This document shows, in pieces, positions 2,814-6,838 of a DNA stretch of 52,344 nucleotides. The position numbers and the translations under genes are program-made. The notes under the pieces are model-generated. The model did not search any database. It was not told the origin of the DNA and was given only the letters and a program-made list of their open reading frames with translations. Position 1 is the stretch's first letter. The number at the start of each line of letters is the position of its first letter. This DNA is from Actinomycetota bacterium (GTDB lineage Bacteria; Actinomycetota; Acidimicrobiia; Acidimicrobiales; Ilumatobacteraceae), in contig SYAZ01000046.1 in the NCBI GenBank assembly GCA_005788815.1, positions 1 through 52,344 of the forward strand. The letters are read 5' to 3'.

Positions 2814-4205
2814 TTAAAGAGGCGTGTTGTCATGTTTACGAGACACGAGTTTTTCACGTTTATCTCGCAACATGTGCAGAGCAGCACAAATCTCGCGCCG
2901 AGTATCGGCTGGATCAATCACGGCGTCCACGTAGCCACGTTCTGCGGCTATGTACGGATTCAAAAGTCGCTCTGAATAATCTGCCTCAAAGGCGGCCCGT
3001 TCATTGTCGGTCGCGCGCCTCTGGAGAATGGCAGCGGCTTGCCCCGCGCCCATAACGGCCAGTTCAGCCCACGGCCATGCAAGGCATAGGTCGTTGCCCA
3101 TCTCTTTTGAGTCCATCACGATGTATGCACCGCCATATGACTTGCGCAAGATGACACAGATACGTGGAACCGTTGCTCGTGCATACGCAAAAACCAGTTG
3201 CGCGCCGTGACGAATCATGCCGCGCCACTCCAAGTCTTTTCCTGGATAAAAACCAGGAGTGTCGACCAAGGTGAGAACTGGAATATTGAATGCATCACAG
3301 AATGAAACGAAACGCGCAGCTTTTTGTGATGCGGGAATGTCGAGTGTGCCAGCAAGTGAAATGGGTTGGTTGGCCACAATGCCGATGGAGTAGCCCGCCA
3401 TGTTTGCAAAAGCAGTGATCACGTTGCCGGCCCATCGTGCACGAATCTCCATGTAATGACCGTCGTCAACAATGGATGCGATCACGTCACGGACGTCGTA
3501 GCTACCAGTGGAGGTTTCTGGAATGAGAGCACCAGCTTCAGGTGTGAGCCGATCGTCAGCGTCATCGGTCTCTGTGATTGGTGCCAGTTGGTCAACATTG
3601 GAGGGCAAAAATTCAAGGAGTTCTTCGACCCACGCAATTGCTCCAGCAATATCGGGCACCACCACAGAGCTTGCGCCACTATGACGAGCATGTGTTCCTG
3701 CGCCACCCAGTTCATCGGTTGAAACTTCAATGCCGGTGAACTCAGCAACCATTGTTGGTCCACTAACAAATGCATACGAGTCATCTGTCATCACAACAAA
3801 ATCAGAAAGTCCGATGAGTAGTGCAGGGCCAGACACTGCCGGACCAGTCACAATACTGATGGTGGGAACAACGCCTGAACAATCCGCCAATGCTTTTGCT
3901 GCCGTGCCCCAACCATGCAGTGCAGCGATGCCTTCAAGAATGTCTGCACCAGATGATTCCATTTGCGTAACGAGGGGGAGTCCCTTCGAACGTGCAGTCT
4001 GAGCAGCAGTTGCGATGATGTGTGAAGCAGCAGCAGAGAGCGCGCCTTTATGAACTTCACCATCAACGGTGAGCCAGACTGCTTCTCGACCATTTGAAAA
4101 GCGCACGACTGCGGCAGAAGCGGCGCCAGGAACACTGTGCTGTAGTTCAACCACAACGTCAAAAGTATTGATGTGGGTAGCGCTCACTCTGTACAGACTA
4201 GACAC
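2814..4205 (-). CDS. Acyl-CoA carboxylase carboxyltransferase (beta) subunit
   Basis: Transfers CO2 from carboxybiotin to an acyl-CoA such as acetyl- or propionyl-CoA. Both crotonase-fold halves are present. The N-half carries the G-A-D-I-L-E-G and TGPAVSGPALLIGLSDFVVM blocks, a LGGAGTHARHSG motif, and the C-half has VDTPGFYPGKDLEWRG and KSYGGAYIVMDSK with an MGAGQAAAIL oxyanion segment. At 463 residues it is about 50 shorter than typical PccB/AccD5 proteins: the N-terminal ARERI region is missing. The GTG start lies inside the LysR gene, an 8-bp overlap, which suggests the short form is real and coupled to the regulator. No biotin carboxylase/BCCP subunit lies nearby. The exact acyl substrate is unknown. 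Confidence 0.85.
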   Translation of the reverse strand: MSSLYRVSATHINTFDVVVELQHSVPGAASAAVVRFSNGREAVWLTVDGEVHKGALSAAASHIIATAAQTARSKGLPLVTQMESSGADILEGIAALHGWGTAAKALADCSGVVPTISIVTGPAVSGPALLIGLSDFVVMTDDSYAFVSGPTMVAEFTGIEVSTDELGGAGTHARHSGASSVVVPDIAGAIAWVEELLEFLPSNVDQLAPITETDDADDRLTPEAGALIPETSTGSYDVRDVIASIVDDGHYMEIRARWAGNVITAFANMAGYSIGIVANQPISLAGTLDIPASQKAARFVSFCDAFNIPVLTLVDTPGFYPGKDLEWRGMIRHGAQLVFAYARATVPRICVILRKSYGGAYIVMDSKEMGNDLCLAWPWAELAVMGAGQAAAILQRRATDNERAAFEADYSERLLNPYIAAERGYVDAVIDPADTRREICAALHMLRDKREKLVSRKHDNTPL

Positions 4206-5151
4206 TGAGCGATGGACGAGGTCCTTTGGCAGGTTTCACGCCTATTTCTAGGGTGATTCCGGGTTGTCGTGGGGCATGGCGTTGCACAGTCTCTATGGCA
4301 CGCTCGCGTACCGCCAATGTGGCCCTGTTGGGTCGTGGTCGCGGGCGTTGCACCCAGCCCACGACTCTGCGTGGCATCTCTTCAATAGGGATACGTACAA
4401 AGTTGCCCTTTAGCCACCCGGGTACGGCACTTGCTGGAACGATTGCGGCACCGAAACCTTCGAAAACGAGTGACGCCATGAGGCGAACGCCATCGATTTC
4501 GGCGAGCGACTGCAATACAACTCCGTGGTTTGCTGCAGCTCGATCAACAATGCGGCGCTGTGCAGTTCCTCGCGGAGCAAGCATGATGGGATGCTCTGCG
4601 AGTTCTTCCAATGTGATGGATGTGTGCGTGGCCAAGACATGCTGCGTTGGTGCAACAAGGAATAGTTCCTCTGCAAATAATTCACGAACATCGAGGGTGG
4701 TATCTGCAATGGGAAGGTGAACAATTGCCGCGTCAATTTCACCATTTGCGAGTCGAAGCAACAATGAAGAGGTAGCGCCTTCAACAATGGTGGTCCGAAC
4801 ACCTGGATGGTGTCGCGACAATGACGAAAGAAGTGGTGGCATCAGCCAGCGTGCTGTTGTGCCAATGGTGCCAACTCGGCAATCTCCTGTTGCTGTGTCT
4901 CCCAATGAATGAATATCTGCATCAATGTCTTCCACTTCGTGCAAAATGCGCCGTGCGCGAGTGAGCACTAAGTCGCCTTCGTCGGTGAGAGCGCCGGTGG
5001 AACGGTCGATGAGTGTGGTGCCCAGTGCCGCTTCAAGTCGTCCAATGTGAGCAGACACGTTCGACTGCACCGTGTCGAGGTATTTGGCGGCTGCCGAGAA
5101 CGACCCATGATCGGCTATGGCGACGAGGCTCTGAAGTTGCTTGATTTCCAT
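4198..5151 (-). CDS. LysR-family transcriptional regulator
   Basis: A 317-residue DNA-binding regulator. The N-terminal winged helix (about 1-60) shows the standard LysR signature, including SFSAAAKYL and QSNVSAHIGRLEAALG. A linker helix is followed by a periplasmic-binding-protein-like effector domain (about 90-295) with a GEIDAAIVHLP segment. Its 3' end overlaps the start of the carboxyltransferase by 8 bp, so the two form one operon and the regulator may sense an intermediate of that pathway. A good LysR box (5183-5201) lies about 32 bp upstream of its ATG, consistent with autoregulation. No strong Shine-Dalgarno sequence is seen. The ligand cannot be deduced. Confidence 0.92.
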   Translation of the reverse strand: MEIKQLQSLVAIADHGSFSAAAKYLDTVQSNVSAHIGRLEAALGTTLIDRSTGALTDEGDLVLTRARRILHEVEDIDADIHSLGDTATGDCRVGTIGTTARWLMPPLLSSLSRHHPGVRTTIVEGATSSLLLRLANGEIDAAIVHLPIADTTLDVRELFAEELFLVAPTQHVLATHTSITLEELAEHPIMLAPRGTAQRRIVDRAAANHGVVLQSLAEIDGVRLMASLVFEGFGAAIVPASAVPGWLKGNFVRIPIEEMPRRVVGWVQRPRPRPNRATLAVRERAIETVQRHAPRQPGITLEIGVKPAKGPRPSLSV

Positions 5152-5182
5152 GGCTCAGACTGCTTTCTGGGTCGGAAGTGAC

Positions 5183-5201
5183 CTATCACTAAAAACGATA
5201 G
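5183..5201. promoter_or_regulatory. LysR-type operator (T-N11-A box)
   Basis: CTATC and GATAG arms are perfectly complementary around a 9-bp A-rich spacer. This contains the ATC-N9-GAT (T-N11-A) geometry typical of LysR regulator sites. It lies between the lysR start (5151) and the promoter of the 6C RNA (-35 at 5222). LysR autoregulation is the natural reading; control of the small RNA is possible. Confidence 0.6.
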
Positions 5202-5213
5202 CAAGTATCTTGC
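5201..5213. repeat. Short inverted repeat next to LysR box
   Basis: Perfect 5-bp arms, GCAAG and CTTGC, around TAT, directly abutting the LysR box. It may be a second half of the LysR regulatory region (activation site) or chance. The GCAAGTA half also occurs in the palindrome upstream of aconitase (9126-9144). Confidence 0.3.
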
Positions 5214-5221
5214 CGTTCGAC

Positions 5222-5250
5222 TTGAGTGTTCACGCATTCACGTGCATACT
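5222..5250 (+). promoter_or_regulatory. Promoter of the 6C RNA
   Basis: TTGAGT (5222-5227) and CATACT (5245-5250), separated by 17 bp, match sigma-70-type -35 and -10 elements. Initiation would fall near 5257, just before the first hairpin of the 6C RNA. Confidence 0.6.
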
Positions 5251-5256
5251 TTCACT

Positions 5257-5365
5257 AATAAATCGCGCCGGACATCCCCCTTTTAGTCCGGCCGAAAGAA
5301 CCCATCAGATGGTCCCCCCACCATCGGGTTTCGGTAGAGAGGTCCCGCCTAGTGCGGGGCCTTTC
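5257..5365 (+). ncRNA. 6C small regulatory RNA
   Basis: Three consecutive hairpins are visible. The first is a 7-bp stem (5267-5273 with 5286-5292) whose 12-nt loop contains five Cs. The second is a long stem with two left-side bulges: CCGAAA, CCC and GATGGT pair with 5320-5334, closed by a loop of exactly six Cs (5314-5319). The third is a terminator hairpin (5341-5348 with 5354-5361, one G-U pair) followed by TTT. Two hairpins with C-rich loops define the actinobacterial 6C RNA family (B11/ncRv13660c in Mycobacterium), whose loops are known to pair with G-rich ribosome-binding sites. As in mycobacteria, it sits directly upstream of a HAD phosphatase gene. End points are inferred from promoter and terminator positions. 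Confidence 0.88.
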
Positions 5366-5401
5366 CCATTTCTCCCCATATACAACGCCCCAATTCAGGC
5401 G

Positions 5402-5407
5402 TAGTGT
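5402..5407 (+). promoter_or_regulatory. -10 hexamer of leaderless HAD-PlsC gene
   Basis: TAGTGT stands exactly 6 nt before the GTG at 5414, so the mRNA is expected to begin at the start codon. No Shine-Dalgarno sequence is seen. The gene would thus have a promoter separate from the 6C RNA. Confidence 0.5.
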
Positions 5408-5413
5408 GCCCGC

Positions 5414-6838
5414 GTGGGGCACGCAGCTTTTTTTGATCTTGATCGGACACTTCTTTCGGGCGCATCTGCTCATGTTGTGAGTCGTGTGTTGCGCGAAACA
5501 GGAGTCGTGAACAGAAACATTCCTGGCGAATCTCTCATGTATCAAGTCTTTGAAACGTTCGGTGAGAATCTTCCGTCCATGGTGTTGGGTCGTCAAGCAG
5601 TCATTGCGATGCGTGGTCATTCACGTGAGGAAGTGCGCGCAGCATCGCGTACAGCAGCGCCCGACATTCTTGCAATGGTGCAGCCATATGCAAAACAAGT
5701 TATTGACGGACATCGTGCGGAAGGAAGAAAAGTTGTTTTGGCAACTACAACTCCGCGCGACCTCATTGAACCATTTGCAGAGCTCATGGGTTTTGACGAT
5801 GTGATTGCAACTACTTATGCAGTTGACGCAGACGGTTGTTACACCGGCGAGTTAGACGGTCAATATGTCTGGTCGCGCGGAAAACGCGATGCTGTGAAGC
5901 GTTGGGCTGAAGAAAACGGAGTTGATCTCGCTGGTTCGTATGCCTATAGCGACAGTGTTTTTGATGAGCCATTACTCACTTCTGTGGGTAATCCATTTTG
6001 CGTGAACCCAGATTGGCGTTTACGCCTCATGGCTGCAGCACGTCGTTGGCCGGTTATGCATCTTGATGTACCCCTAGGTGTTGCAAAGGTACCCGTAGTT
6101 GGTCTTGAAGCACAACAAGTACTGATGAAGTTTGCTCGTCCTGAAGTATTCCCGTATGCACGATTCAAAATCTCGGGCACAGAAAATATCCCAACAGATG
6201 GCGCAGCGATTATTTGTGGCAATCATCGCAGTTATTTCGATATTGCTGCCGTTTCACTAGCTGTTGCAAAAACTGGGCGAGCAGTGCGGTTCCTCGGCAA
6301 AAAAGAAGTCTTTGATGCGCCAGTGATTGGCCCACTCGCGGCTGCACTCGGCGGCATTCGTGTAGAGCGCGGAACTGGCAGTGATGAACCATTGAGGGCA
6401 GCAACAGAATCGTTAGTCGCTGGTGACCTTGTTGCGTTAATGCCGCAAGGAACGATCCCTCGTGGCCGGGCATTCTTTGATCCCATATTGAAGGGGCGTT
6501 GGGGTGCAGCAAAACTGGCAGCACAGACAAAAGCGCCAGTCATTCCAATTGGTATTTGGGGAACGGAAAAAGTGTGGCCACGCAACGCAAAGTTGCCGAA
6601 CATCACGAACGTGACATCACCACCAGAAGTCATCATTGTTGTTGGTGCGCCAGTGTCGTTGTCTTACACAGATGCAGACGCAGATACCGCAGCAATCATG
6701 GCTGCCATTAGCGCATTGTTGCCACCAGAGGGACGCGAATATTACGAGCCCACTGAAGATGAACTGCGACGGTCGTACCCGTCGAACTACAAGGGTGACC
6801 CTAACGCCGAAGATGATCGGCGCCCAGGTACCGATTAG
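5414..6838 (+). CDS. HAD-IB phosphatase fused to PlsC-type acyltransferase
   Basis: A 474-residue two-domain protein. The N-terminal SerB-like HAD domain (about 1-225) has DLDRT (8-12, nucleophile Asp 8), the TTT motif near 111 and the metal-binding SDSVFDEP (179-186). The C-terminal glycerolipid acyltransferase domain (about 245-450) has NHRSYFD (270-276, the HX4D box), RVERG (316-320), PQGTIPRG (344-351) and PVIPIG. The likely role is in phospholipid synthesis or remodelling at the membrane: acyl transfer to lysophosphatidate plus removal of a phosphate. Such fusions are known in actinobacteria. The GTG start gives an immediate FFDLDRT N-terminus typical of the HAD family. Its stop abuts that of aconitase with no spacer. 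Confidence 0.88.
   Translation: MGHAAFFDLDRTLLSGASAHVVSRVLRETGVVNRNIPGESLMYQVFETFGENLPSMVLGRQAVIAMRGHSREEVRAASRTAAPDILAMVQPYAKQVIDGHRAEGRKVVLATTTPRDLIEPFAELMGFDDVIATTYAVDADGCYTGELDGQYVWSRGKRDAVKRWAEENGVDLAGSYAYSDSVFDEPLLTSVGNPFCVNPDWRLRLMAAARRWPVMHLDVPLGVAKVPVVGLEAQQVLMKFARPEVFPYARFKISGTENIPTDGAAIICGNHRSYFDIAAVSLAVAKTGRAVRFLGKKEVFDAPVIGPLAAALGGIRVERGTGSDEPLRAATESLVAGDLVALMPQGTIPRGRAFFDPILKGRWGAAKLAAQTKAPVIPIGIWGTEKVWPRNAKLPNITNVTSPPEVIIVVGAPVSLSYTDADADTAAIMAAISALLPPEGREYYEPTEDELRRSYPSNYKGDPNAEDDRRPGTD

Follow-up and report, generated by a model that had tools for sequence, protein, structure and literature searches.

The locus and its features

The window analysed here is a stretch of 52,344 nt from a freshwater actinobacterium. 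The subject of this analysis is the gap at positions 5152–5413, which separates a LysR-type regulator gene on the minus strand from a HAD-PlsC gene on the plus strand, and which appears to hold a small RNA gene together with the elements expected for its control. The features are as follows:

4198–5151, minus strand: LysR-type regulator gene (PF00126 and PF03466), divergent, the proposed controller; at 79 of 80 loci
5184–5209, plus strand: operator-like TATC-N9-GATA-N5-TATC of the LysR type T-N11-A, from the family consensus; one per genome in the genus sample
5222–5250, plus strand: promoter-like −35 TTGAGT (5222–5227) and −10 CATACT (5245–5250), spacing 17, from the sequence; at 79 of 81 loci
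5257–5371, plus strand: small RNA gene, from fold, model R1 (66.9 bits) and covariation; start placed 7 nt past the −10
5263–5295, plus strand: hairpin 1, with C5 in its loop AUCCCCCUUUUA, from fold and covariation
5298–5331, plus strand: hairpin 2, loop CCCCCC (C6), with a 4-nt bulge on the 5' side, from fold and covariation
5333–5371, plus strand: hairpin 3, GC-rich and terminator-like, loop CUAGU, from fold, covariation and the loop count across relatives
5414–6838, plus strand: HAD-PlsC gene (PF12710 and PF01553), a variable neighbour outside the unit; at 56 of 78 loci

The RNA of 5257–5371 was found to fold with an energy of −53 kcal/mol, against −31.7 ± 3.2 kcal/mol in 200 shuffles (z −6.62), none of which folded as well as the native RNA, and the opposite strand of the same segment reached a z of only −1.79. 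The stem-loop of hairpin 3 occupies 5333–5367 and is followed by AUUUCU, a short U tail. A simple sigma-70 scan did not report the −35/−10 pair at 5222–5250, nor did a simple terminator scan report the hairpin at 5333–5367, so both calls rest on conservation: a −35/−10 pair 16–19 nt apart occurs in 79 of 81 loci (a loose pattern, counted with no shuffled control), and in the aligned matches of R1 97.5% of the hairpin 3 cells are paired. What the initial annotation had described at 5257–5365, two hairpins with C5 and C6 loops, promoter-like elements and a terminator-like hairpin in the gap before a HAD-PlsC gene, is borne out by sequence, fold and conservation, with the 3' end lying nearer 5371 than 5365. 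Taken together, 5257–5371 very probably represents a small RNA gene in its own right. A second terminator-like hairpin with a T7 run lies at 5404–5424 on the plus strand, where it overlaps the annotated HAD start (GTG at 5414).

Conservation and covariation among relatives

In the family sample, a DNA search with a 171-base query (E ≤ 0.01) found the RNA in 85 of 150 genomes, distributed over 20 of 27 genera. These 85 matches gave 84 loci for analysis, with G128 left out, and 82 that enter the counts; the two outside them, L052 and L067, do not match the terminator pattern, though both are found by R1, and L067 is cut by a contig end. No plasmid match was found for the RNA locus. When genomes are ranked by similarity of the LysR protein, the closest are MAGs whose labels read Ilumatobacteraceae, Acidimicrobiaceae or just Actinobacteria; a few of these labels look wrong.

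R1 is a covariance model built from the 13-sequence alignment A4, with Rfam 6C not used in the building. Searched against 90 sources it gave 86 matches, comprising the window and all 84 family loci (one of them twice), and none in the 5 other sources, which are Rfam-6C loci from elsewhere. R1 also picks up genomes missed by the DNA search, two congeneric ones (G025 and G043) among them, and across the class sample it matches 29 of 296 genomes, 22 of which belong to Ilumatobacteraceae. When its matches are aligned (79 distinct rows), 94.5% of cells pair, a value that drops to 41–57% for slid structures. Both sides change in 35 of 41 pairs, with 561 two-sided cells against 136.5 in shuffles; the alignment was fitted to R1 and is therefore biased towards the model, and the effect is large nonetheless. 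The proposal that the RNA is functional is supported to this extent, that an RNA of 6C-like design is kept by selection.

The loop Cs and the bulge of hairpin 2 are conserved among relatives. At least two runs of C4 precede the terminator hairpin in 78 of 82 loci, the exceptions being L047, at a contig end, and L079–L081, three loci of one genus in which one run is kept. In this genus (g14) hairpin 2 is reduced to a small hairpin without a C loop while the C run of hairpin 1 is retained, a natural loop deletion. The terminator loop carries C4 or more in 52 of 82 loci, and the remaining 30 are all in genomes of at most 2.2 Mb; the window RNA, with two C loops and none in the terminator, is thus a reduced form. 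In two loci of genus g13 (L058 and L074) the −10 is separated from hairpin 1 by an insert of about 26 nt, which has an inverted repeat of its own, GAGCTTGTGAT...ATCACGAGC.

Gene neighbourhood and the LysR-type regulator

Wherever enough sequence was available, a divergent LysR gene preceded the RNA (79 of 80 loci), and 78 of 79 loci had a homologue of the carboxyltransferase gene at 2814–4205 of the window. The HAD-PlsC gene is downstream in 56 of 78 loci and missing from the other 22, which keep the RNA; in 19 of those 22 an aconitase gene is convergent with it. The HAD gene had been put forward as a downstream neighbour of the 6C type, and this is not supported: among the 29 Rfam-6C loci of the phylum sample a HAD homologue occurs in 20 (13 of the 14 over the cut-off), upstream and on the opposite strand, and the LysR gene occurs at none of the 29. 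Judged by gene order, the constant partner of the RNA is the divergent LysR gene, not HAD.

The linkage extends beyond the family. An orthologue of the LysR protein was detected at E ≤ 1e-50 in 35 of 129 class-sample genomes, all of the same order. Among the 28 gaps adjoining it, 23 of them outside the family, 26 hold at least two C5 runs within 235 nt, against 25 of 644 control windows taken on both strands from the same loci. A strict test for two hairpins with 6-bp stems was passed by 9 of 28 LysR gaps versus 0 of 282 controls, and with 4-bp stems, a count made with no control, two hairpins were seen in 20 of 28. R1 reaches 22 of 33 LysR loci of the order at E ≤ 1, those outside the family being mostly weak matches, and the genes beyond the RNA vary from family to family. 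Two loci of the order, L153 and L157, have the LysR gene with zero C5 runs in the gap and no such RNA; at L157 (genome G249) the LysR gene lies 94 nt from HAD, with neither operator box nor RNA in between.

LysR-type recognition sites usually lie near −65, and the first dyad of the operator is centred at about −65 from the proposed RNA start, so that both a divergent LysR gene and a T-N11-A site at the customary distance are found here. The family consensus of the operator is ATC-N9-GATA-N5-TATC. Its GAT-N5-ATC part was located by script in 78 of 81 loci, L047 having been removed for a spurious match at its contig end, and by eye in two more, L058 and L074, where the insert shifts the box. It is absent in L009, the RNA locus of genome G082, which keeps the RNA and lacks both the LysR gene and the operator. 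Within the genus, 26 of 31 genomes contain the exact pattern, with 33 sites in total, of which 26 are operator-like, one per genome, and 7 are unlike; when 30 of the exact-pattern sites were examined as loci, 24 had the RNA right beside them, and the 6 that did not were all unlike the family operator. Allowing up to 3 mismatches, exactly one site was found in 8 of 11 genus genomes and none in 3, one of the three being G082. This co-occurrence and the single site per genome indicate that the operator goes with the LysR gene, and the regulator appears to serve mainly the RNA gap, although weaker sites elsewhere would escape such a search.

The LysR protein reached no NCBIfam cut-off among its best 25 matches. 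Its nearest sequence matches in the PDB are OxyR chains, and many LysR families score alike. OxyR carries a redox cysteine pair; the protein here has one cysteine and scores 94.6 bits against a cut-off of 329 with the NCBIfam OxyR model, and an OxyR–OxyS pair was rejected on these grounds.

Relationship to the 6C RNA

The initial annotation named the RNA 6C (Rfam RF01066). The Rfam model gave no match in the window, none in the organism's own genome, and none for the RNA stretch even at E 10. Such a result had been set beforehand as counting against the identification; conservation still points to a real RNA. At E ≤ 0.01 the class sample has 6 matching genomes out of 296, with none over the cut-off, and a search of 20 LysR loci of the order at E up to 3 found no match. 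In the phylum sample 29 of 346 genomes match, 14 of them over the cut-off. The cut-off is a strict test, since the control C. glutamicum, in which 6C is described as established (PMC4046766), also falls below it. With only 14 of the 29 phylum matches above it, the gathering score of 47 seems to miss many likely 6C loci.

In its architecture the RNA resembles 6C/B11 in part. Two hairpins with loop runs of about six Cs are present (C5 and C6), and in the window the last C-loop hairpin is not the terminator, whose loop is CUAGU rather than C-rich; in 52 of 82 relatives it is. Where 20 of the 29 6C loci have HAD divergent upstream, here the upstream gene is LysR, and HAD-PlsC follows the RNA in the same orientation. 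L007, from the same genus, has an RNA that reaches 37.6 bits with Rfam 6C, below threshold, with 6C hairpins 1 and 2 falling on hairpins 2 and 3 of the RNA. In the other direction, R1 finds 12 of the 29 Rfam-6C loci at E < 0.01, every one overlapping its 6C match. Membership in 6C is unproven, given that the window RNA has no match and L007 only one below the cut-off; descent from 6C is possible. In another family of the order (f12), L085 and L086 carry a two-hairpin 6C-like RNA scoring 46.2 and 39.8 bits against the Rfam cut-off of 47; the stretches fetched for them hold no LysR or HAD homologue, and L086 has pyruvate dehydrogenase E1-like genes nearby.

Candidate targets of the C loops

Four G-rich sites, before gltA, potA, potD and gltD, had been named as possible targets. 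The potA site is mostly kept, in 8 of 11 genus members, and those of gltA (4 of 22) and potD (3 of 12, leaving out L244, where the start is missing) are not. The loop pairing of all four is equalled by a sizeable share of random 40-mers from the window, 5.1% for potA, 7.7% for potD, 9.4% for gltA and 17.3% for gltD, and none stands out; for the HAD start the figure is 5.3%.

Some 50 nt ahead of gltA, 20 of 22 genus members keep a G5 run. At about this distance from the gltA start the window has a leader hairpin, GGGGGAGAAAGCCCCC, on the minus strand at about 2740–2770. Across 28 further family loci the element mostly takes the form of a purine-loop hairpin, often with no G run in its stem, and gltA was rejected as a conserved G-tract target for this reason. 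In most of the family loci read, the hairpin recurs directly after a −10-like element as a stem with a purine-rich loop (GGAGGAAGCC-like), and the stem sequence varies.

Genome-wide counts gave a mixed picture. In G253, which has the RNA, G5 is enriched 4.8-fold before starts over upstream sequence (20 of 330 genes), roughly on a par with Shine–Dalgarno words (2.6- to 4.7-fold), and GGGGGA is enriched 16.8-fold, a figure resting on few genes (9). G019 also has the RNA, and there G5 is enriched 1.4-fold (4 of 312). G249, with no RNA at its LysR locus, gives no conclusion owing to poor start prediction (203 of 236 starts are GTG, and Shine–Dalgarno words are hardly enriched). As it stands, G5 enrichment near starts seems neither to support nor to exclude G-tract targets.

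Alternative explanations

The position of the RNA, 43 nt before the HAD start and on the same strand, suggests a cis-acting leader or attenuator of the HAD-PlsC gene. Against this stand the terminator-like hairpin at its end and the retention of the RNA where HAD is missing (22 of 78 loci, 19 of which have the convergent aconitase gene); the leader was rejected on account of this retention, and we regard it as very improbable. It may also be conceived that the partner of the C loops is not the start of an mRNA but a protein or some other RNA, so that the RNA would act as a sponge or decoy. This would fit loop Cs and a bulged hairpin 2 that are kept although no conserved target was found, but the C-loop RNAs of such design that have been studied are reported to pair with mRNAs (PMC12395582; PMC3771888), and a sponge is considered unlikely.

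A further alternative concerns descent and not mechanism, as it would work in the same way: the RNA could be a diverged 6C/B11 RNA from an actinobacterial ancestor, its LysR linkage acquired later in this order. The L007 match over hairpins 2 and 3, the recovery of 12 of 29 Rfam-6C loci by a model made without 6C, the three stem-loops described for B11 as well (PMC12395582) and the HAD genes near 20 of 29 6C loci all speak in its favour. Yet no class genome among the 296 exceeds the cut-off, the 20 loci of the order have no 6C match, HAD sits on the other side and strand, LysR is at 0 of 29 6C loci, and three-stem C-loop RNAs are reported to arise elsewhere, as with sX13 (PMC3771888). Such an origin is given a little less than an even chance.

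Proposed reading and its significance

At the level of sequence, comparison establishes a conserved folded RNA with promoter-like elements and an operator, linked near-constantly to LysR and variably to HAD. We consider it probable that 5257–5371 is a LysR-controlled, 6C-like antisense small RNA gene with its own promoter and with C loops acting on G tracts. The RNA would be transcribed from this promoter, and the divergent LysR-type regulator would probably bind the operator near −65 and control it. The C5 and C6 loops would then probably pair with G tracts close to translation starts, preventing translation, by analogy with B11/6C in mycobacteria. That the ligand of the regulator is a metabolite of the citrate/acetyl-CoA node is a guess from the gene setting alone.

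In favour of a LysR-controlled C-loop RNA are the fold (z −6.62), the covariation, the LysR gene at 79 of 80 loci, the co-location of operator and RNA, and the joint loss in L009. Against it count the Rfam 6C non-match, the lack of a conserved target, and L153 and L157, which have LysR without the RNA. Against a B11-like action in particular, the terminator loop, described as the seed in M. marinum B11 (PMC12395582), is here without a C run.

A wider reading is offered tentatively, and we would put it at somewhat under even as a whole: in this order of Acidimicrobiia, one LysR regulator with one operator per genome would drive one C-loop RNA, converting a signal from a central-carbon metabolite into translational repression of G-tract mRNAs. 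This single-output arrangement would place the RNA inside a gene cluster of citrate synthase, carboxyltransferase and aconitase, with two or three C loops, the terminator loop having lost its Cs in several small-genome genera.

The 6C/B11 RNA regulates several mycobacterial mRNAs, and its inputs and reach are little understood. If the proposal is true, C-loop RNAs would extend to an order with no Rfam 6C match over the cut-off in the genomes sampled; the LysR regulator and its operator would provide a testable input for such an RNA; and natural losses of LysR, of the RNA or of single loops would show which parts depend on each other.

Comparison with known systems

Within the open-licence library searched, no paper mentions 6C RNA together with Acidimicrobiia, and the single one that combines 6C RNA with LysR does so only by way of LysRS; among the open-licence papers listed, no title dealt with a C-rich-loop small RNA paired with a LysR-type regulator in actinobacteria.

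OxyR–OxyS joins a LysR-type regulator to a divergent small RNA; the regulator here differs in its one cysteine and in scoring far under the NCBIfam OxyR cut-off.

With 6C/B11 the RNA shares stem-loops with C runs in their loops, a transcript of its own (here predicted) and a HAD gene often near (20 of 29 6C loci). M. marinum B11 is described with three stem-loops, as here; its C-rich loops are the second and the third, and the third, which belongs to the terminator hairpin, acts as the critical seed (PMC12395582); in M. abscessus either C loop is reported to suffice for one target (PMC10470900). In contrast, the C runs here are in loops 1 and 2 with none in the terminator loop, RF01066 is unmatched, LysR is at none of the 29 6C loci, and HAD is on the other side and strand. 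The Xanthomonas RNA sX13 likewise has three stems and C-rich loops, and is reported to act on G-rich motifs without Hfq (PMC3771888); B11 and sX13 are both described as acting through C loops on G tracts (PMC12395582; PMC3771888). sX13 belongs to a different phylum, and no sequence relation to it was found, the Rfam scan giving only sX14 (E 0.64).

The closest known layout is that of GcvA–GcvB, in which the small RNA is transcribed divergently from the gene of its LysR-type activator (PMC1557403), activation being, as described there, a feature of GcvA. The phylum and the RNA are different, and GcvA is reported to control gcvTHP as well, whereas here 8 of 11 genus genomes have one operator each.
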